Shown in pieces: positions 7,143 to 48,788 of a DNA stretch of 64,000 nt. Each line of letters starts with the position of its first letter. The stretch's first letter is position 1. The DNA is from Ruminococcus sp. (lineage in GTDB: Bacteria; Bacillota; Clostridia; Oscillospirales; Acutalibacteraceae). Below the pieces are notes generated by a model that did not search any database, was not told where the DNA came from, and was given only the letters and a program-made list of their open reading frames with translations. A program made the translations under genes and the position numbers. Where the stretch lies: the NCBI GenBank assembly GCA_017411385.1, contig JAFQQF010000016.1, positions 1 to 64,000 on the forward strand. Direction: 5' to 3'.

Positions 7143-7166
7143 CTAAATCCCTCCATAATAAGTACT

Positions 7167-7370: not shown

Positions 7371-7406
7371 ATAAAACACCGCCGCCTCTCATAGGAGAAG
7401 CGGCGG
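7371..7406 (-). terminator. Intrinsic terminator after oppA
   Basis: Minus strand: a 12-bp GC-rich stem with one wobble (7379-7390 with 7395-7406), four-base loop, then TGTTTTATTAT. It lies 43 bases past the oppA stop and separates the opp and rimP operons. Confidence 0.85.
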
Positions 7407-7448
7407 ACATCAGTCAGTTTTCTGGTTGTTTAGAATTCACAGATTATA

Positions 7449-24366: not shown

Positions 24367-27300
24367 TTATTTTGTAGCTTCAATAAGGTCAGAGTATACA
24401 ACACGGATAACGCCCTGTGCATCTCTGTACTGTACAAAGCTCTTAGCTACCCATGTGTCACCCTCTGAAACGCTTGGAATAGTAACAGAGTAGCTGCCTG
24501 TCTTTGAATTACTATGGTTCATTGCAGGAACAAACTGATATACGTTAGGATCAATTGTACCTACTCCGAAGGTAGTTTCAAAGTAGTGCTGCTTCTCAAC
24601 AAGGAGAACACCTGTATTAACAATCTCATAGCCTACAGATGAAGTATCCCATGAGAAGAATGCTGTGTTAGCATCACCAAGAGTTGTTGTATCAATGTCA
24701 ACAGTAGAAATAACACTTCCGTTTACTGCTTCATTTGTGCCAACAAATACAGCTGTGAGCTCTGTGTTCTTGTGGGGATAGAACTTGTATGCTTCGCTGT
24801 AACTTACAATTCTGCCCTTCTCGTCCTGCCAGTAAGCAAACTTCTTGCCGGAGGGAGCCTTGTCTGCGGTTACTGTTGTAGCCTTATATGCTCTATACAT
24901 ATCATCAACGCCGCCGCTTACAAAGTTTGTAACACTACCGCCGTTAACTGTAACCTTGAAGTATACAGTCTTAGCTGCCCACTTGGTGGTTATTGTGATA
25001 TTCTCACCCTTCTGGAGTGCCTCCAGAATCTGAGCATCTGTACGGTCCCAACCAACGTGCTCGTAGCCGGGATAATCCACAACTGCAGGGAATACCAACT
25101 CGCCAAGATTATCCATATTGTAGTACTGCATATCAATAATCTGGTTTGTCTTGTCGTTTCTGAAGGTTACAAGGCTCTTGCCCTCGTTATGGTCTGCAGC
25201 ATACATTGCAACCAATACATCGTTACCTGATGTATAGAAGCTGTAGGTGGGATTTATGCTGACAATTTCACCGGTCTTTGCATTTACCCAACCGATAAAC
25301 TCATAATCGTTATTGGTAACAGCCTTAACAGTAACGAACTTACCGAAGTCCATGGAAGAGTTAACATAGTACAAGCCTACAGGCTTAGATGTACCGTTAT
25401 CAACGCTCATCTGAATGTTACTACCACCGGCGGACTTAAGCTCAAGATAGCCAATCTGACCGGCAATAGTTGCAGATTTCTCGTACTGAGCAATAACTGT
25501 CATATTGCCTGTGATGTTCTCAAGCTCCTTATCCCAGCCGTTGAAGGTGTAGGTGTACCATACATCAACAGGCTTTTCGGGAGTTGCACCTGTGTAGGTA
25601 GCGGAGTTGCCTTCCTTAACAGATACAGTCTGAAGAACTGTGCCGTCGTAGTTTACGAATTTCACATCGTAGTAGGTTCTGTACTGACCTTCAACCTCCT
25701 GCTTCTCGGGCAGGTTCATTCCGTTTGCATAAGCCTGTGTGCTGGGAGTTGCAACGTAACCGGGGAAGAAGCCCATCTCATCACGAAGAGGTTCGAAGTT
25801 TGCAAATGTCAGAGTGCTGTTGATGTCAGCGTTCCACTGCTTGATACCGCTGGACCACATACGCTCAATCATGCTGTAATAATAGCCGTATCCGCTGTAA
25901 GAGCTTTCACTGCTATTTGTCTTACCATATTCATCGTAACAACCGTTCCATACCTCTACCTCAGTATTCAAGCCCGCAAAGTCGTTCCAAATCATGAAGT
26001 ATGCACCTGCGAGCTTGTCGCCTGAGTAGTTGTTTGCAGCGCCCAAGTTGGTGTCAGTATAAGCACCGAACTGGGAAGCGTTCCACTCGTTGTAGATATG
26101 GTCTTCCTGATTTCTGTAGAACTCCCACTGTCTGTTACTGGGGTCACGGGCATCCAGATGAGTACCGGTGTTGGTAGAGTTATAAGGTGCAATACGGAGA
26201 ACGTAGTATGTCCAGAAGTTTACACCGCTGTATACCTGTCTGCCCTGATTTGCATAGAAGCTTGCTGTTCTCAGATAGTTTCTGGAACTTGTTGTTGGCA
26301 ACCAGTAAACAACACCGATATCGTTGGAGATACCTGTTGTGATAGATGAGTAGTTAGTGTTGTACAAGAAGTCGTTATACATTCTTGTCTTGTAACCATA
26401 AGACTTCAATACGTTGTTAACATCGTTAACATAGTTTACAAAGTGTGTGTTATAGTTCCATCTGTCTGTAGATTTAAGACCGACTTCATCAGCACCGATG
26501 TTAAAGTCATCAGAGCCGGAATAGTACTTGAAGAATGCTGCGATATCATTATACATCGCATAAGCAAAGTTCTTAACTGCTGTGTTGCTCAGGTCAAGTA
26601 CGGAGAAGTCGTATCTTGTATCAGTTGAACCGGTATATTCTCTGTAGTTAATCTGAGTAGGCAGTGTGTAGTTTGTGCCCTTGTATGTGAAGTTTCTGAT
26701 GGGTGAGTTGGAGTTTGCCTTTACTGTGTTGTAGTAAAGCTCTGTCATGTAGCCAACATGAGCAGGTGTATCGAAGGAAGGAATAATCTCGATGTTATAT
26801 TCCTTAGCGGTTTCGCATATTTCGATAACTTCCTCTGTTGTCAGGTACTTGCCCTTGTCGTTAACCTTTCCGTTGCTGTCTTGGAACTTAGTAAATACCC
26901 AAGGAGCAGGATTACTGCCGCAAACCCAAGAGAAGTCATTGCCTGTCATACCGGGAACCTCAGCGAGAGCCTTATCGCCCCAGAAGTCCATACGGAAGCC
27001 GCCGTCTTCTGCCATGTGAAGCTCAATTGCGTTGTATCCCATCCAAGAAATCTCTGCAATGTAGTTCTTGATAGCCTCAACAGTCAGATACTTTCTTGCT
27101 ACATCAAGGTGGAGAGTACGCTCGATTGTATCAGGCTCATCCTTCAAGGTAAAGCCCTTGATTGCATTCTTGTTTGCTGCACGGAAGTGCTTCTGGAGAG
27201 TATTCAGACCATAGAGCAGACCTCTTTCGTCAACACACTCAATCTTAGCTCTGTCGGTAACTGTGAGAGTATAGCCCTCGTCACCGTTACTGCTGTATGC

Positions 27301-30300
27301 AGAGCCTGTGTAAACGATAATGTCGCCCTTTGTTGCGTACTTTTCAATACCCCATACAACCTGCATATCATAACCGTCTGCTGCAAACTGCTGCTGAACA
27401 AGCTGTGCTGTATCGATAATATCCTGCTCAGGAGCAGTATCCTCGGATGCAGTAACAATGAATATCTTGCTGTCGTCTGTGATAGCGAAGTCGGATGTGT
27501 TAGCTGTGAAGCTGTCATAGAGCACGCCCATAGAGCTTGTGCTGTTACCTGTGATTGCAGGAGTTGTAGTATCGTCTGCAGCACCCTGTGCAGGCTCTGT
27601 AGCACCTGTCATCTGGTCAACAAGCTCGATAAAGCTTACGAAATCGGAGGAAGACAGGGTATTGCCGTTGCTGTCAAGAAGTGTATTGCCCAAATCCTCG
27701 CCATAGGATACATCGGGTACTTCAGACTCGTTAAGAGTGAGAAGCTCAAGTCCGTTGTACTTGAGTGAGGTGAAGGAAGCCATACCTGTGGGATCTGTAT
27801 CTGCCACTCTGAGAACCACCTGATATCTGTCAAGAGCTTCATCGTAGGGACACTCTGTATAAGGAATTGTGTAGTACTGCTCAGCAGAAGAAACAGAAGC
27901 TGCAAGAGTTCTCCATACAAGCTCTCCGCCTTCGCCAACTGCACCGTACTGAATCTCAGCATTGATCTTACCTGTGTTGGAGGAACCAATGAAGCTGCCG
28001 TAGTCAACAGCTCTGAATGCAATCTGCATAGTTGTGTTTTCTGCGCCTGTTTCCTTTACATAGAAAGCAACAGCAGATTTCTCTACATCGGTGGACTCAA
28101 TCATGTAAACCTCGTTGTTGGGACCTGCAATCAGGTAATCTGCAACGCTGGCTACAGTATTGTTAGTCCACTTTGTATTGTGGTCGTTGGGAAGAACATT
28201 GTTACGGTTTTCAATCCAGGTGTTTGTACCGCCTGATACTGAAAGTCCGTTTTTATCGTCATACTTGATAGCGAATGCCTTTCTGTTTTCGATAAGATCT
28301 CTTACTTCTGTATATGTTGCTCCGTTTTCGTTGTCGATGTATGCATCATGCACGCCGGAACCCTTGATAGACTTTTCGCCGTAAATTTCTACTTCGTTTA
28401 ACATTACCCAGTAAATTCCGGTGTTAAAGCCGAAGCACATACGAACATATCTGCCCTCAACTGCCTCGTTAAGCTTAAGGGTTGCCCAATAAGCACTTGT
28501 GGCATCGGGGTTAAGGTCGGAAGGACTGCCAACATAGTTGCTCCAGTTTGTTCCGTCTGAAGAAACATATACATCAACAAATGCAGCAGTACCAAAGTCT
28601 TTGCTACCAAGGTGTACCTTAAATTCGTCAAGGCTGTAAACATCTCCGAGGTCAATAGTAAGCTGACCGTAAGGTACATTGTCGGCTGTGTTTTCAACAT
28701 TAAGAGTTCTGTGATAACCAAACCAGCCTTCTCTGCCTGTTGCCCATGTAGGTGCATCAATAAAGTCAGCAGCTATGCCATCGGTGAGTTTTGCATCGTA
28801 ATAATAGTTATTAAGGGAGCCTGCAAGAGCAACTTCTGCGCCCGTATAAGTCTTATTAAGCGCAATGTTATGTCTTTCTACAACCTGAGCAGAATCGCTG
28901 ATGGGCTGATAGATACGAACACCATCAATACACAGGAAAGACTCTGCAACAGGAGGAGCCTGATTGAAGTCAGTCCAATTATCAAAGTCAAATACGGGAA
29001 CACCCTTGAGTACTACCTTGTAGGTGCCGTATTCAAGTCCGCTCATACGGACAATAGGAACAGAAACAATAGACTCTGAGCCGCCATCGCCGCCGTTATC
29101 AAACTCTGTGATAACAGGAAGCTTCTTGATGAAGTTGTTGTTTTCATCGTACAGCTCAACCATAAGTGTACCGCTGCCTGTAGCATGGGTATGACCGATA
29201 ATTTCAAAGCCAGTACCTGTAAAGCTGAAGGAAGCAAACTCGTTGTTGTCGTTTATATATACCTCTGTGAAGGAGCCGCCGGTGAGCTCATCGTTCTCAG
29301 AACCCTGATATGTCTTGTCGTTTCCATACTGCTGATTCTGGTCGATGCTCTGAGTAAGGCTTCCTGTGCCTGAGGTATAGTGGTTAATAATGTTAGAGGT
29401 GCTGTTTTTGTCAGCATAATTGATGCCTTCAAAAATATCCTCGTAGTAAACCACGGAAGCAGGAAGAACAGTAACCTTCTTCATCATCTGAACTTCCTTA
29501 CCGATGTCGATTGCTTTGCCTAATACTGTGGGGTCAATGTCCTTTTCGTGAACAGTAAGAGCCATCCAGAGGTTGTACTCTGTATCCATGAAATCCACAG
29601 GAGTAAAGCTGAAGCCTTCGTTCTCAGCGTCAATACCATAGGTAACAGTTGCCTTTGTAGTTGTAGCAGGAGGTGTTACCTTGCTGTTACCGGAAGCATG
29701 AACCACTGTTTCTACACTTTCGTTATAGTTGTCATTAATATTAATCTTTGTAATGTATGACTGAGCAAGTGTAATGTTATTTGTCTGCTGTCTGTCTTCT
29801 GACTCGGGATTATGACGGCCATTGATAATAACATGAGTTGTACCCTCGGGAGGCAGGAATGAAACTGTTCTGTCATCTGCAACAGTTACAGGCACGCCGG
29901 GCCACTGAGTAGACTCGCTTGTGTTCTCATTCCAGTAGTGAACACAAACATCAAACCACCAATCAGGAACATGTGCAAGAACTACTGTTTCGCCACCGCC
30001 CTCAATAATGAAGTTGTTGGTCCACTCTGCGCTCAGTGCAAGGTCCTTGGTCTTCTGATTCAGGTATGCCTCATCGCCAACCTTACCGTTATTGATAACA
30101 ACGTGAGTTGCATAAGGAGGAACTGCTGTGCTGTAAATACCTGTTCCCTCGTAATCTCTACCCTTTCTGCCGGGCCACTCCTGATCAATAGTGCCATCGT
30201 AGCCTTCCTTGAAGAAGTAGAAGTAAACATTATCCCAATCATCGGGCTTAGCTGCCTGAGCAGTTGCTGTGGATGAAAGCACCTCAACATTAATCCATGT

Positions 30301-33300
30301 TTCGAGACCTGCAGTAACTGAGAGGTTTTCTGTCTGTCTGAAAGTACCGTCACTGATGATTACGTTTTCAACATCAGCAGGAACCTCCAAGGAGTAAACT
30401 CCTGTCGTTTCATCCTTTGTCATCTGAATACCGGGCCAAACAACGCCTGTGTAGCTGCCGTTACTGTTCCAGTAATAGAGCCATGCCTCGTTCCAAAGCT
30501 CGGGCACGGTAGCGTGCATTGTAACCTTTTCCAAGGACTGAGTTGCAACCGCTGTATATCTCTCAGGGTCAGCAGTATCCTCAATAGGAGTATCATTTAC
30601 TAAAATCCAAGTTTCCTCACCTGCGGTAACAGTCAAGTCTTCTGTCTGCTTGCGGTATTCTGTTACTCCTTCTTTACCGTTGTTAACAATAACGTTAGTA
30701 ATATCGCCGGGGATTGTTAAGGTATAGTAGCCATCCTCATCCACAGCTTCAATCTTTGTACCGGGCCATTCCTCAACAGCATGTGAGAACATATCCCAGC
30801 AATAGATGTAAACATCGCCCCAGTCATCGGGAACGTCTGCGTGAATGATACCGTCCCTTGACTTGTATTCAATGGAAGGCAGCAGCTTGTCGCCGGACAT
30901 CTCAGAGCCGTCGCCGAAGTCAATCCAAACCTCTTCGCCGGGGTTAATTGTCAGGTCAACAGACTGTGCTTCGCCGTTGCTGATGATGATGTGGGGAACA
31001 TTTCCGGGGATAGAAAGGTTAAAGTTACCGTGAGAGGTCTTGTTCATCGGCTCGCCCGGCCAAGTGTTATTAGAGCCATCGTCATACCAGTAGTAAAGGT
31101 AGAGCTGCTCCCAAGTATAGGGAACCTGTGCATGAACAAGGGTTGTTCCCGAGTCGGTCAATGAATACATTCCCGAGAACTCATTGTAGGTGATCTCCTT
31201 ACCCTTCTCATCAATCTTCATATTAAATGTATAGAAGCCGTCTGCTTTGCCGTCCTTGCCGTTTACATAAATATTATTATGGTCGTCAAGCTCCATTGCG
31301 TCAAAGTCAATGCGGTTGTAATCGTTTGTACCGTCAGATACCTTCAGATACTCGCCGCCTGTTGAGCTGATACCCATAAGCTTTGCATCGGTACCGCTCA
31401 GCTTACCCAGAAGGTCGTCGTTTTTGAACAATTCGCCGTTAACATCAAGATTTTCTGTCTTAAGGCCGTAGTCAAGAACATAGGTTGCATCTTCAGTATC
31501 AGCTACTATGATAAGAACACGAACGATAGCGTACTGGCCCTCTTCCATAGTATCAACAACACCTGTTACAGTTTCGTTGAACACCTCGCTGTCCTTATAC
31601 ATCAGCACATAGAACTCATGAATACCCGTTGTATCGTAATTTGCTATAAAGCCATAATTACCTGCTGCATCATGACTGTCCTTTACAAAATCATACTTAG
31701 TGCCCTTAACGCCGTTCTTATCACAGAATGCCGTACGTATACACTCTGTAACAGGCTCACCCAGTTCCTCTGCCTTTTTGTTTACTGCTGTGAAGAAGTC
31801 GATATATTCATTGAGCAAGCTGTTTTCGTTACCTGCTTCCTTAGTAGCATCTGCAAAGATTGTCTTCTCAGGAACAAACAGCTCGTTGTCCTCCCACTGG
31901 TAGTAAGCAGGGATAGCTGTGATGTATACGCGGTGGCTGTCGTCGCTTCGCTTGGTTTCACAGCCGGGAGCATTGCGGTCTGCCTTGTTGGTTGCAGTAA
32001 CATAAACTGTGTTATTGAAGGAGCCAGACTCTACCTGATCGTGTGTCATTGTGTAGTAGATACCGCTGATTTCAAGGGTTGCATCTACCCAAAGACCGGA
32101 GCCTCTTCTTGTCTGCTCATCATCAACAGTTGTGTTGTCTGTTGCGTCTGACTCAAGAGTTTTGAGGAAGGCTTTAAGAGCTTCATTGTCAGCAAAGGTT
32201 ATATCATCAGTCACAACGTACTCGTACTTACCTGTGCCTGCTTCAACCTTGTTGTATGAATCGGTGGCAAAGTCGTAATCGTAGTTACCGCCTGTGCCTA
32301 CATCCTTGTAGCCCTTAACCACAGCTATAAGGTCCTGTGCCTCCAGCTTGCCAAGTCGGGCGTCTGTAACAATGTAGCCGTTAATATCATTATTATCGTC
32401 GCCGTCATTGTCTTTTGCTACATAAAGACCGTTTTCGGGAGAAAGTGAAACGCCGATATCAGCATCGTCAAAGGTAAAGTTATAAAGCTTTGTGTTACCG
32501 CCGTTGGTGGTTGTAAACTTATAAGCGATAGGAGTTGCACCGTCTACGATTCCGCCGTAGTCGATTTCCTTGCCGCCCTGATATGCCTGCTTCTGAACAC
32601 GCAGAGCAGGGTCGGTGATATGCATATTTGTGAGAATACGCATGTTTGCACCGTAGCCGTGACGCTCCATGTAGTAGAAGTCAAAGCTTGCAATCTCGCC
32701 GTCTTCAAGGTTCAGAGCGTTTGCACGTGCTACCTGAGTAGCTGAGTAGTTTGTGGGGTTATTAAGAACAGTTTTTGCCCACTCAACATAATCGTTAACG
32801 TTAAATCTACAGCTTGAAACAGAGTGGCCGCCGCCAAGGTCAAGAACAAGCTGACCGTTAATAAACAGGTAAACGTCGTCGTCACCTTCGAATTCGAAGT
32901 AGAGGTTTTCGTTTTCCTGATATACGAACTCACCGTTTGATACCAAGGTGTAGCCGTAGTTTCTGCCGTAGTATGTATCATTGTCAAGGGTAAAGCTACG
33001 CTTACCGTCTTCTGCAAAGTAGTAAGAGTCAGTCTGACCGGCATATACACCCTCCGCCTCAACTACAGGGAGGAAGGGAAATTTGGTTGTGACTGAAGCC
33101 TCATTTGCCGCATAATAGAAGTAGTCCTTCTCGTTAACAGTACCCAGAGAAATTGTACCTGTGCCGTTTGGCTGGTTGTAACCGCTGTACTCAACAGCAG
33201 ACTGAGTCCTGTCTTTGTACTGAGCCTGAGTGATTTTACCGCTGATAACATCTTCAATCTCTGCACCCTGAGAGAAGCCGCCGTCAAATACGTAAGCCTG

Positions 33301-35085
33301 CTCTCCGTTGTCAAGCTTAGCGCTGGAGAGTGTAAGGTAGGTAAAGTCGTCCTGAAGCTGGTTGTAGGAATCAGCTACAAATGTATTGTGAAGCAGATAG
33401 TAAGCCGCATCCATACATGTTTTGATGTTGTCGCTACAGCTAAGGAATGCACCCTTTAGCTTATCTGCCTTTGCAAGTGTATCTGCATAGGTACCCATTG
33501 TGGGGGTATTGCCCTTCCACTGACCTTTTGTAAAAGAGATGCCAAGGCAGTTTCTCAGACCCTGTGCAAGGTCATTGTCAACCTGAGTGCCATTTACCTC
33601 AGTATAACCGAACTGTGCTCTGTTCTTTACACCTGCAACATAGTTGTAGTTTGCATATCCTGAGGATGGGTCTGCTTTAGCATACTGAGGAATTACCAAA
33701 GTTTTGCTCAGCATATCGGCAATGTACTCTACGGTTTCCTGCTTATACTGGGGAGTACCGTCCTTACCAAGAGTGTTCTGCAGAAGACCTGCAGTCCACA
33801 CACCCTTTATACCCTCTGTAAGCAGATTGTATCCGCCAAAGTTTAGCTTTGACATGTCATATGTTTCGGTACCTGCATCCGAAGCGTAGCCTGTTGCATT
33901 AATGTAATAAATACCGTTTTCGCCCTGAACACTGCCTGAACCATTGAATCTGCCGTCTGAGTCCTTACCAGTTTTACGGTTATTATTACTTGCCGTTGCA
34001 TTAGTGGAGGTAGAAATCCAATAACCGATTCTGTGGGTGTAGTAGCCTGTAGACTCAAAGCCCTTACCGGTTGCAGTAGAGGGGCTACCGCCTGCGGTAG
34101 TATTGGTCCACTGAGCACCGTTAGAGGGATGCAGCATACCAAAGCCGGTGTTATTTGCACCGTTCCATCTTGTTCCCTGTATATATTCACCGGGCTCGTT
34201 GTTAAAGGTAAGACACTGCTGTGCATAGGTTTCAGCTGCAGTTTGTGAGCTGAAATAACCGACCTGAGAAATATCAAGGCGCCAACTGGTGTTATTTACG
34301 TTAACGGTAACATAAACTTCACCTATTTTTGTTGAATCACCTATACTAGAGTTTACTGTTTTAAGGTCAATAATCTTATATGTCCATTCTGATGAGTTTG
34401 GCAAAGAATAACTCTCTCTCCAGTAAGAGCTGTTATACAGCTGTGTACCAATCTGAAAAGCATCTGTACCTGAAATACCGCTGGAACGATAAACGATAAC
34501 CATATACCTTACAGTTGAACATGCAAGACCACCTGATACATCTTCCTCGTCGAAATGAGAAATCGGATAGTTACGACCAGAAGTACCAGAGTAAGTCTTA
34601 GTTAAGTAAAGACGGAGAAAACGGGGACACTGGTAGTTCACTGCTGCTACCGGAGTTCTTGAATATCTTGTTCCTATTCCATCTGCACCATATTGTGTAG
34701 TGTAAGAATAATCATTATATGCCTGGTCCGTAGTATAGTCTGTGCCATACGGTGCGTAAGGCATAGGCTGACCCAAAACATACTGACCGCCGTAAGTATC
34801 ATTAGATACAGAACCTTCAGATGATGTATAAAGGGTAGAACTCTGATTCTGAGCAAACTCAAAGAGCATGCCGTCTGCCAGATGGTCGTACACCTTGATA
34901 GGCCAGTTGATTGCATCGTCCTTGTTAAGGGTATCGTTGTCAATACCCGTGCCTACGTACTTATCCTCTGTAACGATGTCAAACTGATTTACCGCCGCCA
35001 GAGCACTCAGCGGAAACAGTGACGCAATCATTACAAATGCAAGTACAAAAGCCAGAACTCTGCTTGAAAATTTGAACTTTTTCAT
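24367..35085 (-). CDS. Giant secreted multidomain protein with GH20 hexosaminidase domain
   Basis: About 3572 residues. A signal peptide (FSSRVLAFVLAFVMIASLFPL...ALA) is followed by a large unassigned N-terminal region; a fibro-slime/PA14-like domain near 655-815 (GDDDVYLFINGQLVLDLGGGHS); five tandem CBM26-like starch-binding-type modules, roughly 1313-1390, 1412-1495, 1515-1598, 1607-1695 and 1699-1781, each with a WPG motif; a discoidin (F5/8C, CBM32) domain near 2075-2230; a GH20b domain near 2535-2645; a GH20 barrel from about 2650 with catalytic pair Asp2866-Glu2867 in GADEVG; and C-terminal InlB/Flg_new-type repeats from about 3135. GH20 enzymes release terminal GlcNAc/GalNAc or lacto-N-biose, so host or microbial glycans are likely substrates. 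No LPXTG motif, dockerin or C-terminal span is seen. The ATG of MKKFKFSS is preferred to an in-frame start ten codons upstream. Confidence 0.82.
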   Translation of the reverse strand: MKKFKFSSRVLAFVLAFVMIASLFPLSALAAVNQFDIVTEDKYVGTGIDNDTLNKDDAINWPIKVYDHLADGMLFEFAQNQSSTLYTSSEGSVSNDTYGGQYVLGQPMPYAPYGTDYTTDQAYNDYSYTTQYGADGIGTRYSRTPVAAVNYQCPRFLRLYLTKTYSGTSGRNYPISHFDEEDVSGGLACSTVRYMVIVYRSSGISGTDAFQIGTQLYNSSYWRESYSLPNSSEWTYKIIDLKTVNSSIGDSTKIGEVYVTVNVNNTSWRLDISQVGYFSSQTAAETYAQQCLTFNNEPGEYIQGTRWNGANNTGFGMLHPSNGAQWTNTTAGGSPSTATGKGFESTGYYTHRIGYWISTSTNATASNNNRKTGKDSDGRFNGSGSVQGENGIYYINATGYASDAGTETYDMSKLNFGGYNLLTEGIKGVWTAGLLQNTLGKDGTPQYKQETVEYIADMLSKTLVIPQYAKADPSSGYANYNYVAGVKNRAQFGYTEVNGTQVDNDLAQGLRNCLGISFTKGQWKGNTPTMGTYADTLAKADKLKGAFLSCSDNIKTCMDAAYYLLHNTFVADSYNQLQDDFTYLTLSSAKLDNGEQAYVFDGGFSQGAEIEDVISGKITQAQYKDRTQSAVEYSGYNQPNGTGTISLGTVNEKDYFYYAANEASVTTKFPFLPVVEAEGVYAGQTDSYYFAEDGKRSFTLDNDTYYGRNYGYTLVSNGEFVYQENENLYFEFEGDDDVYLFINGQLVLDLGGGHSVSSCRFNVNDYVEWAKTVLNNPTNYSATQVARANALNLEDGEIASFDFYYMERHGYGANMRILTNMHITDPALRVQKQAYQGGKEIDYGGIVDGATPIAYKFTTTNGGNTKLYNFTFDDADIGVSLSPENGLYVAKDNDGDDNNDINGYIVTDARLGKLEAQDLIAVVKGYKDVGTGGNYDYDFATDSYNKVEAGTGKYEYVVTDDITFADNEALKAFLKTLESDATDNTTVDDEQTRRGSGLWVDATLEISGIYYTMTHDQVESGSFNNTVYVTATNKADRNAPGCETKRSDDSHRVYITAIPAYYQWEDNELFVPEKTIFADATKEAGNENSLLNEYIDFFTAVNKKAEELGEPVTECIRTAFCDKNGVKGTKYDFVKDSHDAAGNYGFIANYDTTGIHEFYVLMYKDSEVFNETVTGVVDTMEEGQYAIVRVLIIVADTEDATYVLDYGLKTENLDVNGELFKNDDLLGKLSGTDAKLMGISSTGGEYLKVSDGTNDYNRIDFDAMELDDHNNIYVNGKDGKADGFYTFNMKIDEKGKEITYNEFSGMYSLTDSGTTLVHAQVPYTWEQLYLYYWYDDGSNNTWPGEPMNKTSHGNFNLSIPGNVPHIIISNGEAQSVDLTINPGEEVWIDFGDGSEMSGDKLLPSIEYKSRDGIIHADVPDDWGDVYIYCWDMFSHAVEEWPGTKIEAVDEDGYYTLTIPGDITNVIVNNGKEGVTEYRKQTEDLTVTAGEETWILVNDTPIEDTADPERYTAVATQSLEKVTMHATVPELWNEAWLYYWNSNGSYTGVVWPGIQMTKDETTGVYSLEVPADVENVIISDGTFRQTENLSVTAGLETWINVEVLSSTATAQAAKPDDWDNVYFYFFKEGYDGTIDQEWPGRKGRDYEGTGIYSTAVPPYATHVVINNGKVGDEAYLNQKTKDLALSAEWTNNFIIEGGGETVVLAHVPDWWFDVCVHYWNENTSESTQWPGVPVTVADDRTVSFLPPEGTTHVIINGRHNPESEDRQQTNNITLAQSYITKININDNYNESVETVVHASGNSKVTPPATTTKATVTYGIDAENEGFSFTPVDFMDTEYNLWMALTVHEKDIDPTVLGKAIDIGKEVQMMKKVTVLPASVVYYEDIFEGINYADKNSTSNIINHYTSGTGSLTQSIDQNQQYGNDKTYQGSENDELTGGSFTEVYINDNNEFASFSFTGTGFEIIGHTHATGSGTLMVELYDENNNFIKKLPVITEFDNGGDGGSESIVSVPIVRMSGLEYGTYKVVLKGVPVFDFDNWTDFNQAPPVAESFLCIDGVRIYQPISDSAQVVERHNIALNKTYTGAEVALAGSLNNYYYDAKLTDGIAADFIDAPTWATGREGWFGYHRTLNVENTADNVPYGQLTIDLGDVYSLDEFKVHLGSKDFGTAAFVDVYVSSDGTNWSNYVGSPSDLNPDATSAYWATLKLNEAVEGRYVRMCFGFNTGIYWVMLNEVEIYGEKSIKGSGVHDAYIDNENGATYTEVRDLIENRKAFAIKYDDKNGLSVSGGTNTWIENRNNVLPNDHNTKWTNNTVASVADYLIAGPNNEVYMIESTDVEKSAVAFYVKETGAENTTMQIAFRAVDYGSFIGSSNTGKINAEIQYGAVGEGGELVWRTLAASVSSAEQYYTIPYTECPYDEALDRYQVVLRVADTDPTGMASFTSLKYNGLELLTLNESEVPDVSYGEDLGNTLLDSNGNTLSSSDFVSFIELVDQMTGATEPAQGAADDTTTPAITGNSTSSMGVLYDSFTANTSDFAITDDSKIFIVTASEDTAPEQDIIDTAQLVQQQFAADGYDMQVVWGIEKYATKGDIIVYTGSAYSSNGDEGYTLTVTDRAKIECVDERGLLYGLNTLQKHFRAANKNAIKGFTLKDEPDTIERTLHLDVARKYLTVEAIKNYIAEISWMGYNAIELHMAEDGGFRMDFWGDKALAEVPGMTGNDFSWVCGSNPAPWVFTKFQDSNGKVNDKGKYLTTEEVIEICETAKEYNIEIIPSFDTPAHVGYMTELYYNTVKANSNSPIRNFTYKGTNYTLPTQINYREYTGSTDTRYDFSVLDLSNTAVKNFAYAMYNDIAAFFKYYSGSDDFNIGADEVGLKSTDRWNYNTHFVNYVNDVNNVLKSYGYKTRMYNDFLYNTNYSSITTGISNDIGVVYWLPTTSSRNYLRTASFYANQGRQVYSGVNFWTYYVLRIAPYNSTNTGTHLDARDPSNRQWEFYRNQEDHIYNEWNASQFGAYTDTNLGAANNYSGDKLAGAYFMIWNDFAGLNTEVEVWNGCYDEYGKTNSSESSYSGYGYYYSMIERMWSSGIKQWNADINSTLTFANFEPLRDEMGFFPGYVATPSTQAYANGMNLPEKQEVEGQYRTYYDVKFVNYDGTVLQTVSVKEGNSATYTGATPEKPVDVWYTYTFNGWDKELENITGNMTVIAQYEKSATIAGQIGYLELKSAGGSNIQMSVDNGTSKPVGLYYVNSSMDFGKFVTVKAVTNNDYEFIGWVNAKTGEIVSINPTYSFYTSGNDVLVAMYAADHNEGKSLVTFRNDKTNQIIDMQYYNMDNLGELVFPAVVDYPGYEHVGWDRTDAQILEALQKGENITITTKWAAKTVYFKVTVNGGSVTNFVSGGVDDMYRAYKATTVTADKAPSGKKFAYWQDEKGRIVSYSEAYKFYPHKNTELTAVFVGTNEAVNGSVISTVDIDTTTLGDANTAFFSWDTSSVGYEIVNTGVLLVEKQHYFETTFGVGTIDPNVYQFVPAMNHSNSKTGSYSVTIPSVSEGDTWVAKSFVQYRDAQGVIRVVYSDLIEATK

Positions 35086-35191
35086 AATGGATATTACTCC
35101 TTTCTTGCTTGGCAACTCATTGCCGTGTGAAAATCTATGTAAATATTATATATAATAACGTATATATAATAAATTATCTTTGAGCACTCTT

Positions 35192-35265: not shown

Positions 35266-35979
35266 TTACTCTTCCTGAAAACTAAATCGGACAATCTGTG
35301 AATTCTCGCCAAAATGAGCCGACTCTTTCTGTACCGTCTGCCCGGGACTGAGTGTGCCGAAGTTAAGCATATATGTTATGCCGCCCAGATAGTTTCCGTC
35401 TGAATTTACATTCTTATAGTATATACAAACGTTTTTGAGGGTGTTTCCCGTTTTACTCTTTACAGTAACGGTGTTGCCCTCTGTTTCTACGGCTATGTCT
35501 GTTGTAGAGGTTACTGCATCCTTTTTGAAAACGCTCTCACAATCAAGGAATTCAAAGGAATGAGTTCCGTCAAGCTGAAGCTTGTCTTTTTCAAGCACCC
35601 ATGCCTTTTTTCCCACCGGCAAACCTGTAACATTGAAGGTTGCAATCTTGCCGCCTACATAGTAGGTAATGGTTGCATAGTCCAAAAACTGCTGCGATCG
35701 GTTTTCCACCAATATGGCGGCAACGTTTTCTACGTCTTCGCTTTTGCCGTCCTCTACAAAGGGACCTGTGTAGGTGGTAATCTCCAAGCAGTAAAGTTCT
35801 GCCGAAGTGGGTTTGTACTCTGTAACAGGTTCTCCGAAATAGCCCTGTGTGCTTTCAGTACCACCGCCGTCACAGCCAACAAGCATAAAGCAAAGAGTAA
35901 GCACAACAAGCAGCAGGCTCAGTAACCTTTTACCCTTAAGCAGTCTGTTTAGAAATATTATTCTGTTTTGGGTTTGCAT
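35266..35979 (-). CDS. Lipoprotein of unknown function
   Basis: A 237-residue protein with a basic N-terminus, hydrophobic core (LLSLLLVVLTLCFMLVGC) and lipobox LVGC, so it is predicted to be anchored to the outer face of the membrane. The mature part looks like two beta-sandwich-type segments (ENVAAILVENRSQQFLDYAT; VKSKTGNTLKNVCIYYKNV), reminiscent of FxLYD-like folds, but I do not recognise a family. Start: ATG at 35977-35979 behind GGAGGTGAC; the frame upstream adds only nine residues. It lies upstream of the giant GH20 gene with a repeat between, so it may be independent. Confidence 0.65.
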   Translation of the reverse strand: MQTQNRIIFLNRLLKGKRLLSLLLVVLTLCFMLVGCDGGGTESTQGYFGEPVTEYKPTSAELYCLEITTYTGPFVEDGKSEDVENVAAILVENRSQQFLDYATITYYVGGKIATFNVTGLPVGKKAWVLEKDKLQLDGTHSFEFLDCESVFKKDAVTSTTDIAVETEGNTVTVKSKTGNTLKNVCIYYKNVNSDGNYLGGITYMLNFGTLSPGQTVQKESAHFGENSQIVRFSFQEE

Positions 35980-36102
35980 ACTGTCACCTCCGACAGATAT
36001 AGGCACCTATCCTATTATAATACATAATAAATTATAACACCCACCCCTAACATAGTCAATAATTTTTAGTCAAAATTTTCTTATTTTTTATGCAAAAAAG
36101 GC

Positions 36103-36131
36103 TTGCAATTTACAATATCAGTCGCTATAAT
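36103..36131 (+). promoter_or_regulatory. Promoter of the RiPP-like cassette
   Basis: -35 TTGCAA (36103-36108), 17-base spacer, perfect -10 TATAAT (36126-36131). It leaves a leader of about 57 bases before the PqqD-like gene. Confidence 0.75.
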
Positions 36132-36194
36132 AAATGTGAGTATATGTCGTGGTATGGGTAAAGTGCCCCCATTTGACATTTTAGGAGGCAAAAA

Positions 36195-36461
36195 ATGCAC
36201 ATACCCTCTGGCTTTATCATCCGTCAGGTTGCAAATGAAACCGTTGCCATTCCTACAGGGGAAGCCGCAAAAGGGCTTTCTGGTCTGGTAGCTTTAGGCG
36301 GCAGCGGCGAATTCCTCTTTGAGCTTCTCAAAGAAGAACAAACCGTTGAAAGCCTTGTGCACGCACTTTTGCAAAACTACAACGTTTCTCCTGCTACTGC
36401 AGAGGCAGACGTAAAAGAGTTTCTTCAGATTCTCCGTGAAAACGGAATTCTTATAGAATAA
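36195..36461 (+). CDS. PqqD-like peptide-recognition protein (RRE)
   Basis: An 88-residue stand-alone PqqD-family protein. The order HIPSGFIIRQVANETVAIPTG, LNETG-like GEFLFELLKEEQTVESLVHALLQNY and VKEFLQILRENGILIE matches the winged-helix RRE fold that binds leader peptides and presents them to radical SAM enzymes. The ATG follows TTAGGAGG. It opens the cassette and is 57 bases from the candidate precursor gene. Family assignment is good; the partner peptide is inferred from position. Confidence 0.82.
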   Translation: MHIPSGFIIRQVANETVAIPTGEAAKGLSGLVALGGSGEFLFELLKEEQTVESLVHALLQNYNVSPATAEADVKEFLQILRENGILIE

Positions 36462-36518
36462 ATGAGTGGATTTTTTAACGGGGATGTTTTGTGTCCTCGA
36501 AAGGTAGGTTGATATAAT

Positions 36519-36779
36519 ATGAAAATGGAATATCAGAAGCCTATGGTTGCAGTTGAGCACTACAAGCTCAGTCAATCTATTGCCGCTTGTGCAATTCAGA
36601 TCAACTCCCTGAGCAACGCCTGCGTTGTAAAGGATAGTGACTCTCCCCCTGAAATGCGAAGCGTTGCATACCTCTACCCTGAGTATTTCAGCACAGATTG
36701 CACAACAAACACAGCTTTTATTCAGGGCAATGACTCCATCTGCTTCCACACACAGGTCAGTGCTTGCTTTACCTCCTGA
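36519..36779 (+). CDS. Candidate RiPP precursor peptide, five cysteines
   Basis: An 86-residue protein without a signal peptide or recognised domain. The first 20 residues (EYQKPMVAVEHYKLSQSIAA) look like an amphipathic leader ending in Ala-Ala; after it come cysteines at 24, 35, 61, 75 and 83, many Ser/Thr/Asn, and a C-terminal Ser (ACFTS). CVVKD fits the Cys-x3-Asp spacing used in some ranthipeptides. It lies between a PqqD-like protein and a kinase/radical SAM pair, which is the basis for calling it a substrate. The stop is one base before the next ATG, so the two are translationally coupled. Function is inference. Confidence 0.6.
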   Translation: MKMEYQKPMVAVEHYKLSQSIAACAIQINSLSNACVVKDSDSPPEMRSVAYLYPEYFSTDCTTNTAFIQGNDSICFHTQVSACFTS

Positions 36780-36780
36780 T

Positions 36781-37656
36781 ATGTCACAGGAATACTCTTT
36801 TTGTATCCGTTTTTCAGGGATAACCATAAGGTTTATTGCACCCACTGCTCTTAATCTGCCCGAGTGTATCACCGAGCTTTTATGCTGTAACTGTGAAGTT
36901 GCAGACGCAGAGTACAGGATAACTCTGCTCGAAAGCCCCTTATCTTTCGAAAACGCTCCTGTATACACCGACGGCAACTCACATATATACGAAACTAATC
37001 AAGGCCGTCTGCGTGTCTATTTTCCTCTTACCGAGGAGGATGGATGTCAGGTGGCCTGTCTTTTTACTCCCGAGCGAAAAAACACCCTCTATTACCCTGC
37101 AAAAAGATGGAACCACTACCGCAAATACTGGCATTGTGCCCATCTGCTCTGGGGCGAAATGCTTCTGATGCATCTTGATGCTTTCCTTTTGCACTCTTCC
37201 GTAGTGCTTAAAGACAACAAAGCCGTGCTTTTCTGTGGCGAGTCAGGTGCAGGCAAATCCACTCAGGCTGATTTGTGGAAAACCTTTGCAAACGCCGAAA
37301 TAATCAACGGCGACCGCTGTGTAATCAGAAATCAAAACGGCGTATTCTTCGGCGGCGGCTCTTTGTGGAGCGGTACATCGGGCATTTACTCCCCCCTGTC
37401 TGCCCCCATTGCAGGAATTATTACTCTGAAAAAAGGCGAGAATAACTCAATCAGAAAGCTTGAAGCAGAGGCATTTCCTGCACTTTTCAGCCAGATTACC
37501 CTCAACCTTTGGGATGAGGAGTTTATGCACAACGTCACAGGCAATCTGCTTTTGATGCTCCAAAGTGTCCCTGTGTGGGAGCTTACCTGTGACAAAAGCC
37601 GCGAGGCTGTAAGCCTTGCCTACAAAACAATCTTTTCAAAGGAGCTTCCTTTATGA
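36781..37656 (+). CDS. HPr kinase/phosphorylase-like protein of the RiPP-like cassette
   Basis: A 291-residue cytoplasmic protein with an N-terminal family-specific region and a C-terminal HprK-like P-loop domain: FLLHSSVVLKDNKAVLFCGESGAGKST (Walker A GESGAGKST), then INGDRCVIR and SGTSGIYSPLSAP. Similar kinases occur beside PqqD proteins in lasso-peptide and radical-SAM clusters; one group phosphorylates the C-terminal Ser of the precursor. The frame reaches back into the precursor gene, but the ATG at 36781, one base after its stop, is the sensible start. No strong Shine-Dalgarno is present, consistent with coupling. It overlaps the radical SAM gene by four bases. Confidence 0.8.
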   Translation: MSQEYSFCIRFSGITIRFIAPTALNLPECITELLCCNCEVADAEYRITLLESPLSFENAPVYTDGNSHIYETNQGRLRVYFPLTEEDGCQVACLFTPERKNTLYYPAKRWNHYRKYWHCAHLLWGEMLLMHLDAFLLHSSVVLKDNKAVLFCGESGAGKSTQADLWKTFANAEIINGDRCVIRNQNGVFFGGGSLWSGTSGIYSPLSAPIAGIITLKKGENNSIRKLEAEAFPALFSQITLNLWDEEFMHNVTGNLLLMLQSVPVWELTCDKSREAVSLAYKTIFSKELPL

Positions 37657-38771
37657 CACCCCTTAAATCCGCAGATATAAAAAGCGTTCTCACCCGCAAC
37701 TGTGCTCTGAAGGGTATCCCTGCAAGCGGCATCTTTGAGCTTACCCCCAGATGTAACCTCAGGTGCAAAATGTGCTATGTCAGGCTTACACCCGAGCAGA
37801 TGGCACCCATCGGCAGAGAGCTCACAGCTCAGGAGTGGATAAAAATAGGCAAGGAATGCGTTGATGCCGGTCTTGTATTTTTACTTCTCACAGGAGGCGA
37901 GCCTACTCTGAGAAAGGACTTCTGCGAAATTTACGAAGCACTTACCTTGATGGGACTTTCCATCAGTATAAATACAAACGGAACTATGCTCACAGACGAA
38001 ATCAAAGAGCTGTGGCAGAAGCTACCGCCTGCACAGGTAAACATCACCCTCTACGGTGTATGCCGTGAGGATTACGAATCCCTCTGCGGTGACGGCTCTG
38101 CCTTTGACAGAGTCTGCGAAAGCATCGACTGGCTCACACAGGCAGGAATTCTGGTACATCTGAACACCACCGTAACTCCTGTTAACCTCCACAAGTGGAC
38201 TCAACTTGAGGACTTTGCAAAAAGCCGCAATGCTGAGCTTCGTATGACCTGCTACTGCTTCAAGCCCACAAGACGATACGAGTGTGACTCCTGCACCGAT
38301 TTTGACAGACTTACCGCTGAGCAGGCAGGCGAGCTTACTGCCCTTGATATTTTCTACCGCGAGGGCATTGATGCAATCAGAAAACGTGCAAAGCATATTG
38401 ACACACCTGTTCAGCGCGGATGTGAGCTGGATGTAGGCGACCCCATGCAATGCCTTGCAGGCCGCTCTCAGTTCTGGCTTGACTGGAACGGCAAGCTCAC
38501 CCCATGCGGAATGATTACAACTCCCTGTGTAGACCTGCTTTGCGAAGAAGGCTTTCTCTCCGCTTGGGAGAAGCTGAAGGCAATGTGTGCCCAAATTCGC
38601 CTGTGCAAGGACTGTACCAACTGTCCCGAGAAGGGCTCTTGTATGAACTGTGCCGCCGTAACCTTCACGGAAACAGGCGCCTTTGACGGCAAGCCCGAGT
38701 ATATGTGCAGACTTAACCGAGCTTTCAGAGATACCGTTAAAAAAATAGCAGAGGAAAACCCCGACGAATAA
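37653..38771 (+). CDS. Radical SAM/SPASM-type peptide maturase
   Basis: A 372-residue radical SAM enzyme. The [4Fe-4S]-SAM motif Cys34-x3-Cys38-x2-Cys41 is in TPRCNLRCKMCY; LLTGGEPTLR follows. The C-terminal third is Cys-rich (CELDVGDPMQC; TPCGMITTPC; CKDCTNCPEKGSCMNC), which fits a SPASM/twitch region with auxiliary clusters, as in sactipeptide and ranthipeptide maturases. It overlaps the kinase gene by ATGA. With a PqqD-like RRE and a Cys-bearing small protein in the same operon, thioether formation on that peptide is the leading hypothesis; other radical chemistry is possible. Confidence 0.85.
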   Translation: MTPLKSADIKSVLTRNCALKGIPASGIFELTPRCNLRCKMCYVRLTPEQMAPIGRELTAQEWIKIGKECVDAGLVFLLLTGGEPTLRKDFCEIYEALTLMGLSISINTNGTMLTDEIKELWQKLPPAQVNITLYGVCREDYESLCGDGSAFDRVCESIDWLTQAGILVHLNTTVTPVNLHKWTQLEDFAKSRNAELRMTCYCFKPTRRYECDSCTDFDRLTAEQAGELTALDIFYREGIDAIRKRAKHIDTPVQRGCELDVGDPMQCLAGRSQFWLDWNGKLTPCGMITTPCVDLLCEEGFLSAWEKLKAMCAQIRLCKDCTNCPEKGSCMNCAAVTFTETGAFDGKPEYMCRLNRAFRDTVKKIAEENPDE

Positions 38772-38787
38772 TTGATGAGGTGGATAT

Positions 38788-39276
38788 ATGAAGCAGATTT
38801 ACAGTAGGACCGTTGTACCTGAAGTACCCGATAACGTACCAAAAAGAATCTTTGCATCTGCAATCATCGCTTTGCCTGCAACAGGACTTTTTATTGGTGC
38901 TGTGTGCTTCCTGGCACAGGGGCAGGCTCAAGACTTTCTGCCGATGATGCTAATCTCTTCCATTCTTGCAGGCATTGCTTTTTTGCTCACGTTCTTTGCT
39001 ATACGCACAAAGATTTCTCACGAAAGCATCACAACAAGACCTGAAAACACGGTAATCCCCCAAAACCCCGAAAACCCGTTTTACTCCGTGCAATGCAAAT
39101 GCTGTGATGCTATGTTTGACTATCAGCGCTCAGACCTTGCTTTTCGCCCATGGTTTATAAAGGGTTACGTGGAGTGTCCCTGCTGTCACAAGCCCATAGC
39201 CCACAACAAGGAGCTGAACACCTACATTCCCTTCAGAGCTGTTACCTCTGAAACTGACAAAACCATAGCAGATTGA
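38788..39276 (+). CDS. Membrane protein with C-terminal zinc-ribbon-like motif
   Basis: A 162-residue protein not assigned to a family. Two spans (IFASAIIALPATGLFIGAVCFL and LPMMLISSILAGIAFLLTFF) are followed by a hydrophilic region with two CxxC knuckles, QCKCCDAMF and VECPCCHKPI, which form a likely zinc ribbon on the cytoplasmic side. It follows the radical SAM gene by 16 bases and precedes the cassette terminator, so it belongs to the same operon. It could be a membrane partner or an immunity or export helper; that is speculation. Confidence 0.6.
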   Translation: MKQIYSRTVVPEVPDNVPKRIFASAIIALPATGLFIGAVCFLAQGQAQDFLPMMLISSILAGIAFLLTFFAIRTKISHESITTRPENTVIPQNPENPFYSVQCKCCDAMFDYQRSDLAFRPWFIKGYVECPCCHKPIAHNKELNTYIPFRAVTSETDKTIAD

Positions 39277-39280
39277 ATCC

Positions 39281-39313
39281 AGCGGATGCCGAGAAAGCAT
39301 CCGCTTTTTATTT
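39281..39313 (+). terminator. Terminator of the RiPP-like cassette
   Basis: A perfect 9-bp stem AGCGGATGC / GCATCCGCT with a seven-base loop, followed by TTTTTATTTG. Confidence 0.85.
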
Positions 39314-39420: not shown

Positions 39421-39470
39421 TAAAGTGTATGGATATCGGCATTTTATGCAATCTTTAAGGAGATGATTTG

Positions 39471-43251: not shown

Positions 43252-43269
43252 AATAAACTCCTGAAGCTC

Positions 43270-43719
43270 TTACGATTTCTTTCTTCTTATTACTCCGAAA
43301 ACTGCAAACAAAAATGGTCGCAAAAACACCGTGTTGTTCCAGATTTTGCGAAAGAAAAACCAGAAAAAGCTCTTTTCTGATATTTCCTTTCCCTTACGTC
43401 TTATGCCTGTCAGCAAAGCACAGATCTGCTCTTTTTCCACAGGTCCCTCAACGGCGTATTGCCTGTCGCCAATCATATAATATTGGGAGTTTTTCACCTT
43501 TTTTATTCTGTGCAGAACAAAATCACCGTTTCTTCTGCGAAAAAGCACAACGTCGCCTTTTTTGGGGTCACGCTTGAGCTTTTCAAGGTATGCATAATCC
43601 CTGCCGCTTGCAAGGAAGGGAACCATACTGGAGCCTGACACCACAGTGCAAACCCGCTCTCCCTGCTCTGCAAGCTCACACAGCACAGAAAGGAAGCTCT
43701 CTGTTTCTACAATCTTCAT
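43270..43719 (-). CDS. S24/S26-family peptidase (signal-peptidase-like)
   Basis: A 149-residue S26-type protein. VVSGSSMVPFL carries the candidate Ser nucleophile, and GDVVLFRRRNGDFVLHRIKKV supplies the box in which SipW/archaeal-type enzymes use His (HRI) rather than Lys. Unlike ordinary signal peptidase I it has no N-terminal span; a short hydrophobic stretch (FFWFFFRKIW) is near the C-terminus. Such proteins occur in EPS and PqqD/radical SAM type clusters. The substrate is unknown. The ATG overlaps the last base of the kinase stop region. Confidence 0.7.
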   Translation of the reverse strand: MKIVETESFLSVLCELAEQGERVCTVVSGSSMVPFLASGRDYAYLEKLKRDPKKGDVVLFRRRNGDFVLHRIKKVKNSQYYMIGDRQYAVEGPVEKEQICALLTGIRRKGKEISEKSFFWFFFRKIWNNTVFLRPFLFAVFGVIRRKKS

Positions 43720-46650: not shown

Positions 46651-46673
46651 AAACAAACACTTCCTGCTAAAAA

Positions 46674-47471: not shown

Positions 47472-47507
47472 CAATTTACCTTCTTTCACATTTGTGTGAA
47501 TAAATAA

Positions 47508-48716
47508 TCAGTCTTCCAAAAGGTCAAAGCTTTTGAGAAGCTGTGTCCTCTCATTGGCAATGAGCAAGGTCTGCACCGGGGTGTTTGAGTCCTTCTTGCT
47601 GATTTGCGTTACATAAACAAAAATTCTGTGTATCCATGCCACAGGCAAAAGCAAGGGCATCCTACAGGCATAGCTAAACCTGCCGTCGAGCTCTCTCAAA
47701 GGCGGAAACAGCCTGTGCAAAAGTCTTTTCTTTTTTCCCTGCACAGCATCCCAAGTTATTTGTGCACTGTGTCTGCGCGACATAGTAGCACCTCCGTAAA
47801 CTCCTGCACAAAGAATATCCTTAAGCAGGGCTTCTTCATTTATACGGAGCTTACCTGCAACAGAGTTATATATGTCGGCTTCTTTTTCAAAGCCCAGATG
47901 CTTTCCGCCTATTGCGAATATTCCTGCAGTAAACTTATCTGCCTTTGTATATCTAAGCTTTTCAAGCACAGAATTCCATTCTATATCGTCTGAGTACTGT
48001 CGGGCAAAAAGCATTATGTCGCAAATCTGACGAATTCCCACACCGCCGTTAATAAAATGCTTCAGCGTATGAAGAATCAGAAAAACCAGATGGTCAGTAG
48101 GACAAAGGGTGTAAAGCTCCCTATTCCCTGCCTGTATAAAAACCGCTCTGGAGGACACCTCTTTCAGCACCTCGTTATACCTGTTAAAGTACTCTGTCTG
48201 TGTAGAAAACAAAGAGGTGTGCAACTCAATATGCAAGCCCTCATCTGTAAAGTAAGAGGTTTCGTAAGAATTCTCCTTGTGGGCTTCCTGTTTTCTCAGC
48301 CCAAGCTCTGTAAGAGCTTTGTCATAGGCCTCTGCTTCCTTTGAGGAAATCAGCAAATCCTCATCGCCGGAAAACCTAAACTCGGGCTTTGGATAAAGCT
48401 GTCTGCAAACGATGCCCTTTACCACCAAAGGCGTCAAGCCCTTTTTCTGAAGCTCACCATATAGTCTGAGAAAGCTTTCTTCTCTTAAGCTCTGTTGCAA
48501 AACCAAAAGCTTTGTTCGTTTTAAGAGAATTTCCTTTTCGCTGTCATCATACGGGCAGACCGCATACACCTTGTCATAAATTATAGGCAGTACCCTGTGA
48601 AGCTCAGCCTTTCTGAGTATTTCATCTGTTTCTTCACGGCTTAAGCTCACTTCGCAAGGCAGGTCTTCTCCGTTTATTGCAGTTTTCAGAATTTCAAGAA
48701 ACAGGCGGTTTGTCAT
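47508..48716 (-). CDS. Nucleotidyltransferase-fold protein (NTP_transf_5 family)
   Basis: A 402-residue cytoplasmic protein of the PF14907-type. The diagnostic segment is LVVKGIVCRQLYPKPEFRFSGDEDLLI, where FSGDEDLLI holds the metal-binding acidic pair, later HIELHTSLF. The rest is helical. Such proteins appear in capsule clusters and next to PqqD or lasso-type modification genes; the acceptor is unknown. AAGGAAGAG lies before the ATG at 48714-48716, and the predicted start point of transcription is below the longer in-frame start, which supports this choice. It is the first gene of the operon. Confidence 0.75.
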   Translation of the reverse strand: MTNRLFLEILKTAINGEDLPCEVSLSREETDEILRKAELHRVLPIIYDKVYAVCPYDDSEKEILLKRTKLLVLQQSLREESFLRLYGELQKKGLTPLVVKGIVCRQLYPKPEFRFSGDEDLLISSKEAEAYDKALTELGLRKQEAHKENSYETSYFTDEGLHIELHTSLFSTQTEYFNRYNEVLKEVSSRAVFIQAGNRELYTLCPTDHLVFLILHTLKHFINGGVGIRQICDIMLFARQYSDDIEWNSVLEKLRYTKADKFTAGIFAIGGKHLGFEKEADIYNSVAGKLRINEEALLKDILCAGVYGGATMSRRHSAQITWDAVQGKKKRLLHRLFPPLRELDGRFSYACRMPLLLPVAWIHRIFVYVTQISKKDSNTPVQTLLIANERTQLLKSFDLLED

Positions 48717-48759
48717 TGGAACTCTTCCTTTTGAAAATCTCAGGTTACTATACGGAATC

Positions 48760-48788
48760 ATTATATCACAAAGACGCTCTATATTAAA
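48760..48788 (-). promoter_or_regulatory. Promoter of the EPS/tyrosine-kinase operon
   Basis: Minus strand: perfect -10 TATAAT (48760-48765) with TGTGA before it (extended -10) and a weak -35 TTTAAT at 17 bases. Confidence 0.6.

Follow-up and report, generated by a model that had tools for sequence, protein, structure and literature searches.

A conserved radical SAM cassette with an HPr-kinase-like protein and a serine-ending precursor peptide in a Ruminococcus genome

The stretch of DNA analysed here (the window; positions 1 to 64,000 of contig JAFQQF010000016.1, assembly GCA_017411385.1) comes from a Ruminococcus sp. and carries, at 36103-39313, a compact gene cassette whose product is very probably a chemically modified peptide. 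On the forward strand it encodes, in order, a PqqD-type recognition protein for ribosomally synthesised and post-translationally modified peptides (RiPPs) of 88 residues (36195..36461; PF05402, E 9.9e-16), a precursor peptide of 86 residues (36519..36779), identified by conservation, leader motif and purifying selection, an HPr-kinase-like protein of 291 residues (36781..37656), identified by its residues and by a family profile compared with HPr kinase chains, and a radical S-adenosylmethionine (SAM) enzyme of 372 residues with SPASM-type cysteines (37653..38771; PF04055, E 6.2e-25). A co-directional fifth gene (38788..39276) encodes a membrane zinc-ribbon protein. All of the open reading frames (ORFs) of the RiPP-like cassette proposed in the initial annotation lie where it placed them, and the couplings and terminator that it described are found as well: the kinase ATG lies 1 nucleotide past the precursor stop, the radical SAM start overlaps the kinase stop, the zinc-ribbon gene begins 16 nucleotides past the radical SAM stop, and a sequence scan locates a terminator-like hairpin followed by a T run at 39281..39305 (forward strand). 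The single promoter also has a corresponding site (TTGCAA-17-TATAAT, 36103..36131, forward strand, 10/12 consensus match), but the consensus scan of the region returned seven such matches where 4.6 were expected, so this promoter is no more than plausible.

The PqqD, precursor, kinase and radical SAM genes form a conserved four-gene unit. With the radical SAM protein as query, a search of the species-genome collection returned at least 80 loci, 38 of which (L024-L061) were tallied. Eighteen of these, from 15 genomes, are called close (L024-L040 and L056; radical SAM identity to that of the window at least 48%). The precursor occurs together with the radical SAM gene in 18/18 close loci, a kinase match is present in 17/18 and PqqD in 15/18, with none found in L028, L039 and L056. 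In L028 only a kinase remnant matches, L056 has no kinase match and a radical SAM gene split in two, and the radical SAM gene of L030 starts in another frame. Deer, goat or cattle are named in the record titles of 11/18 close loci. The zinc-ribbon gene is found in 0/18 of these and in 0/38 of all related loci tallied, and no match to it occurs in the seven other cassette-bearing genomes of the genus, which rules it out as a cassette member; the five packed ORFs of the proposed operon are real, but the fifth is not a conserved part of it. Matches to the zinc-ribbon protein exist in 15/161 genus genomes, and those listed outside the window cover only the ribbon (residues 99-144).

When 198 relatives were searched with the precursor, strong matches (E < 1e-24) were obtained in seven genomes. 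The precursor profile finds 8/161 genomes of the genus, in which the cassette is therefore patchy, and 11 of 394 across the order; the window's genome is included in all three counts. Identities of the precursor, kinase and radical SAM proteins co-vary (Spearman 0.75-0.80), for which species history alone could suffice. Second copies of the cassette occur at L028 (5461-7077), L056 (5613-6817) and L039 (1941-7086), in genomes that also hold L031, L025 and L030, and in the L039 copy a GH20 gene lies between the kinase and radical SAM genes.

The window's precursor contains five cysteines, the leader motifs YxxP and IAxC, and the C-terminus CFTS, in which Ser86 is terminal. It was aligned with 22 others, 26-87% identical to it; L004, L005, L008, L009 and L010 (the window itself or duplicates) were left out, and L132 and L133 were likewise excluded as repeats of L030 and L039. 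The leader form MKxxYxxP...L...IAxC is common to the 23 precursors, with Y..P and [IVL][AS]..C in 23/23, in agreement with the leader-like start noticed initially. Five cysteines had likewise been noticed; four of them (Cys 24, 35, 61 and 75) are conserved in 23/23 precursors, but the fifth is present in only 3/23 and was rejected as a family feature. In a second alignment Cys61 is nearly invariant, because L041 aligns differently. The precursor gene has a ratio of non-synonymous to synonymous substitution rates (dN/dS) of 0.065 against L024 and 0.124 against L030, at dS values (1.3 and 1.8) that are near saturation; for L026 dS was not computable. Since both sequence and place are conserved, under purifying selection, the 86-residue ORF is a gene and not a chance reading frame. 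Loss of the small protein or of its cysteines among relatives, which the initial annotation had foreseen as speaking against it, was looked for and is not seen (18/18 loci; four Cys in 23/23). None of ten precursors reaches the cut-off of an NCBIfam model, and those tested in Pfam match nothing. A conserved RNA structure 5' of the precursor gene was also considered and rejected; by eye, 18 stretches share only a purine-rich motif resembling a ribosome-binding site.

The cysteines and the terminal Ser of the precursor are constrained. The C-terminal Ser remarked on initially recurs in 22/23 close precursors, the exception (L007) being one residue longer (...TSV), and in 13/14 complete distant precursors, the exception (L122) ending in ...SY; L116, which runs off its stretch, is excluded from the 14. 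The profile used to collect distant precursors includes the terminal Ser, a mild bias for that count; in 6/14 of them (L117, L118, L119, L121, L124 and L125) the match stops well before the C-terminus, and all six end in Ser. A kinase match is present in 9 of the 15 distant stretches (L112-L126), and L124-L126 combine weak precursor-profile matches with no kinase seen in those stretches. Among the wider cassettes described below, 11/11 precursors that accompany a kinase lacking the Asp-Asp pair end in Ser, compared with 1/9 where the kinase keeps both Asp (L042, L045, L047 and L050); Fisher p is 7e-5 by peptide and 0.009 by locus, uncorrected for shared ancestry. As a control, Ser is the last residue in 11/210 entries for labelled neighbouring ORFs, a list in which some ORFs appear under two labels. 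The residue is kept in L026, L040, L041, L043 and L056, in which no kinase follows or the next gene starts only some distance past the stop; a by-product of the stop-start overlap is thus an unlikely origin, although the terminal Ser codon is TCN in all 21 Ser-ending rows compared. The association of terminal Ser with kinase subtype is what an enzyme-substrate pair would show, with shared ancestry as an alternative.

Alone, the window's kinase yields only weak P-loop matches in Pfam. The profile of alignment A2 matches the HPr kinase chains 2qmh/1jb1 (E 6.5e-6) across the His, the P-loop and the Walker-B-like Asp. A2 comprises 34 chosen kinase relatives and omits the L028 remnant, the L052 fusion, the short L057 ORF and the second kinases of L047 and L050. 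The window's protein has His138, GxSGxGKST and Asp178, with Gly177 at the position of the first Asp of HPr kinases; His138, Lys159 and Asp178 are invariant in the 34 aligned kinases. The NCBIfam model nearest to the window's PqqD protein is that of the lasso-peptide PqqD (34.2 bits, cut-off 80), and its nearest solved chain is TbiB1, a weak match (E 0.0032). The radical SAM enzyme has CxxxCxxC and auxiliary-cluster (SPASM-type) cysteines. In A3, an alignment of 34 chosen radical SAM sequences from which L049, L052, L056 and L059 were left out, Cys 34, 38, 41, 267 and 285 are invariant and Cys 321, 324, 330, 333 and 352 nearly so; only 4/34 members reach the Pfam SPASM model at E 0.01. The best solved matches are SkfB (top), PqqE and 5v1q.

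Beyond the close loci, 20 wider radical SAM loci were obtained from Peptococcaceae, Desulfosporosinus, Anaerocolumna, Clostridium and other Clostridia. A kinase is encoded in 18 of them, PqqD in 16, an S26-like peptidase in 13 and an exporter in 8; CpsD-like (8), Wzz-like (7), NTP_transf_5 (7) and CpsB (3) genes also occur in the stretches examined. In 12/13 loci carrying it, the S26-like gene directly follows the kinase gene or a fusion. Such a fusion is found in L052, where radical SAM and kinase are joined in one protein of 640 residues (5941-7863) with the S26-like peptidase gene directly after it and no precursor found nearby. Wider precursors were chosen for their YxxP motif and their position, irrespective of how they end (L051, which lacks YxxP, was picked by eye); 13 of the 34 ORFs listed by the YxxP search were dropped, each lying within a longer gene or ORF, and no precursor was found in L044, L052 and L059. 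A second precursor type, roughly IA..CWA[YF]...GC...D..WS, is seen in L055, L057, L058, L060 and L061, and L054 is similar. This type (e.g. L055 7043-7384, L058 7032-7373 and L060 7083-7406) has two cysteines and the same terminal Ser and matches no library model.

The absence of exporter and protease genes reported initially is true of the operon, but candidates for both exist elsewhere in the genome and, in some relatives, near the cassette. A signal-peptidase-like (S26-like) gene about 4 kb downstream (43270..43719, reverse strand; PF00717, 24.0 bits, cut-off 23.3) encodes a candidate leader peptidase whose Ser31 and His70 are present in 17/17 aligned sequences. An exporter 65% identical to the cassette-side exporter of L109 sits on another contig of the window's genome; there, on contig C33 (L131, 3-8265), the exporter orthologue adjoins another giant secreted protein, with List_Bact repeats and CBM-like domains. 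On contig C14 of the same genome (L105, 799-4802), a second HPr-kinase-like gene, whose product keeps both Asp of the pair, lies beside genes for PqqD and an ATP-binding cassette (ABC) exporter and one further gene; the 12 kb examined there contain no match to the window's radical SAM protein. A third PqqD gene, on contig C52 (L104, 4882-6111), has an S26-like peptidase gene after it and, before it, genes for a small dockerin-like protein and for a long protein of secreted type.

The best explanation of the cassette, and one that we regard as likely, is a radical SAM RiPP pathway with a lasso-type tailoring kinase. It is the recurrence of lasso-cluster parts around the radical SAM enzyme that suggests leader delivery, radical modification, Ser phosphorylation, leader removal and export. 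By homology, and by a motif shared with lasso leaders, the PqqD protein would bind the N-terminal leader of the precursor through YxxP: in the part of PMC10368454 covered here, lasso leaders have a conserved YxxPxL and B1 proteins recognise leader residues; the covered part of PMC7533575 identifies these B1 proteins as PqqD homologues. The radical SAM enzyme would then modify the core, most likely forming thioethers at all four conserved Cys or a subset of them, other radical chemistry being possible. Comparative evidence and lasso precedent suggest that the HPr-kinase-like protein phosphorylates the C-terminal Ser. In the sections of PMC9266682 drawn on here, PadeK phosphorylates the C-terminal Ser of a lasso precursor, a site that is highly conserved where the kinase gene is present, and PadeK, ThcoK, SyanK and PsmK all act on the C-terminal Ser. 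The leader may be removed by the Ser/His signal-peptidase-like protein and the product shipped by the ABC exporter, both of them candidates from outside the operon.

Several points weigh against this pathway. The window's kinase has three of the four residues of the His-Lys-Asp-Asp motif of lasso kinases, Gly177 standing at the first Asp, and both Asp of the motif matter in BsfK (PMC10368454, in the part covered). Where the kinase keeps both Asp, a terminal Ser is rare among the precursors (1/9, four loci). Nor is action at the C-terminus obligatory for such kinases: BsfK phosphorylates Ser3 of the core, in a precursor ending in Asp. Some control ORFs also occasionally end in Ser (peptidase-like 4/15, lipoprotein 3/14, radical SAM 4/37), and the four cysteines could bind a metal instead. 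The nearness of the peptidase gene to the cassette is weak evidence, because the signal-peptidase-like family is present in 151/161 genus genomes and L174 carries a close copy with no cassette or capsule set in the 20 kb examined. An unlikely alternative follows from the points on the kinase, namely that the product is a radical SAM RiPP but the kinase-like protein has a different target site in the peptide or serves as a nucleotide-dependent chaperone, a regulator or an exporter gate, the terminal Ser being kept for recognition by another partner. The Gly in place of the first Asp, the pairing of kinases that retain both Asp with precursors mostly lacking a terminal Ser (1/9 have one) and the action of BsfK on Ser3 would all suit it. 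Against it stand the invariance of His138, Lys159 and Asp178 in 34 kinases, the terminal-Ser rule that tracks kinase subtype (shared ancestry being possible) and the C-terminal activity of PadeK, ThcoK, SyanK and PsmK (PMC9266682, as excerpted).

Two further explanations concern the nature of the system as a whole. An already catalogued but under-annotated lasso-peptide or HPr-rel-A/SynChlorMet system is very unlikely: weak matches to the ScmC, ScmD, ScmE, HprK_rel_A and lasso PqqD models point that way, but the window's scores fall far below the curated cut-offs, there is one radical SAM gene and not two, the genome has no B2 (PF13471) match, and the ten precursors stay below NCBIfam cut-offs with none of those tested matching Pfam. 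The least probable explanation is that the 86-residue protein, instead of being a processed peptide, folds, binds a metal (e.g. as an iron-sulphur or zinc protein) and serves the radical SAM enzyme. Its four invariant Cys, the mostly conserved CYHT (CxHT) and the lack of a protease gene among the five operon genes would be accommodated, but Cys spacing differs between relatives, counterparts in wider cassettes retain both YxxP and the terminal Ser, those of L053, L054, L055, L057, L058, L060 and L061 have only two Cys, and YxxPxL is a conserved motif of lasso leaders, which B1 proteins read (PMC10368454, in its covered part).

The cassette is flanked on one side by genes for a lipoprotein and a giant secreted protein and on the other by a gene for a secreted CotH-kinase protein. 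The divergent FxLYD-like lipoprotein gene (35266..36006, reverse strand; FxLYD model 19.2 bits, below the cut-off of 23) recurs beside the cassette in 13/18 close loci. Relatives of the giant protein of 3582 residues, which has five CBM26 domains and GH20 in Pfam (24367..35115, reverse strand), do so in 14/18. Most close-clade giants compared match the window's; a single domain common to all neighbouring giants was rejected, as L041, L116 and L118 have giants that match one another but not that of the window. The CotH-kinase, CBM26 and dockerin protein, so named from its domain content, adjoins the cassette (39468-42473) and has relatives in 3/18 close loci within the stretches examined. A capsule-type gene set follows (42538-48761: CpsB, S26-like, CpsD-like, Wzz-like, Ig-like and NTP_transf_5), in which the CpsD-like and Wzz-like labels are our assumption from the look of the sequences; Pfam finds a CbiA/AAA domain and nothing else in the 43719-45173 protein. 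The NTP_transf_5 protein (47508..48761, reverse strand; PF14907, E 3.7e-45) is a candidate later tailoring enzyme, with related genes in 4/18 close and 7/20 wider loci, and presumably belongs to the same Pfam family as PsmN of the pseudomycoidin cluster.

Giant-protein and capsule-type genes recur as neighbours and suggest a cell-surface role rather than simple warfare. A specific form of this idea, which we consider quite unlikely, is that the product is a surface component and not an antimicrobial: a cross-linked peptide with a C-terminal phosphoserine as a handle, to which the NTP_transf_5 protein would add a sugar and which would be attached to, or presented together with, exopolysaccharide and the giant GH20/CBM26 proteins. 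The recurrence of the giants (14/18) and the lipoprotein (13/18) beside the close loci, and of capsule-type genes, is compatible with a surface function. In the literature covered, some of it in part, lasso peptides are the only ones reported to carry a phosphorylated C-terminal Ser. Should the kinase act on these precursors, C-terminal Ser tailoring would be a portable module shared by radical SAM pathways, one found in Clostridia of the gut and the environment and with two or more unlike precursor types. The terminal-Ser reading also yields a one-residue prediction (S86A).

Among known systems, the sactipeptide maturases (SkfB, AlbA and StsB) share with the cassette a radical SAM/SPASM enzyme and a Cys-bearing core, SkfB being the best solved match. 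The cassette differs in its extra kinase and in a precursor without a library model, and no window protein scores above the cut-off of a curated sactipeptide or ranthipeptide maturase or precursor model. The SynChlorMet (SCM) cassette of NCBIfam TIGR04248-TIGR04251, which we take to be as its model names imply, has HPr-kinase-like, PqqD-like and radical SAM/SPASM parts in common with it. At E 0.01 or better, ScmC is matched by 24/34 kinases, the window's not among them, and ScmE by 34/34 radical SAM proteins. The cassette has one radical SAM gene only, and its scores are far below cut-off: 12.5 bits (cut-off 125) for ScmC, 17.4 (100) for ScmD and, for the single radical SAM protein, 72 for ScmE and 58.8 for ScmF (400 each). 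No SCM precursor model was matched. For HPr-rel-A, the window's proteins reach 19.1 bits (cut-off 200) with TIGR04352 and 18.5 (35) with TIGR04353; membership of either system was rejected, all scores being below the cut-offs.

A description of a radical SAM, PqqD and HPr-kinase-like cassette with a terminal-Ser precursor was not found in the open-licence literature, which is a weak negative. As far as the covered parts of the sources describe them, the kinase-bearing lasso clusters (paeninodin with PadeK, ThcoK, SyanK, pseudomycoidin with PsmK/PsmN, and BsfK) also have an HPr-kinase-like peptide kinase and a PqqD-type protein, and share the YxxP leader motif, the C-terminal Ser in PadeK-type precursors and, in some, a nucleotidyltransferase-type gene. 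BsfK, whose site is Ser3 and not the terminus, is accelerated by its PqqD-type partner (PMC10368454, in part), and PsmN, annotated as a nucleotidyltransferase, is linked in the covered text of PMC9266682 to a hexose on phospho-Ser, with a host enzyme not excluded. The cassette differs from these clusters in having a radical SAM enzyme instead of protease and cyclase, a Cys-bearing core, and a kinase without the first Asp of the pair. The lasso B2 leader protease (PF13471) has no match in the window's genome (93% complete), on which account a lasso system was rejected; Pfam scans of 13 window proteins, to which this search was confined, show no asparagine-synthetase-like cyclase. In its set of parts the cassette, whose tested precursors reach no Pfam or NCBIfam cut-off, resembles both SynChlorMet and the kinase-bearing lasso clusters.

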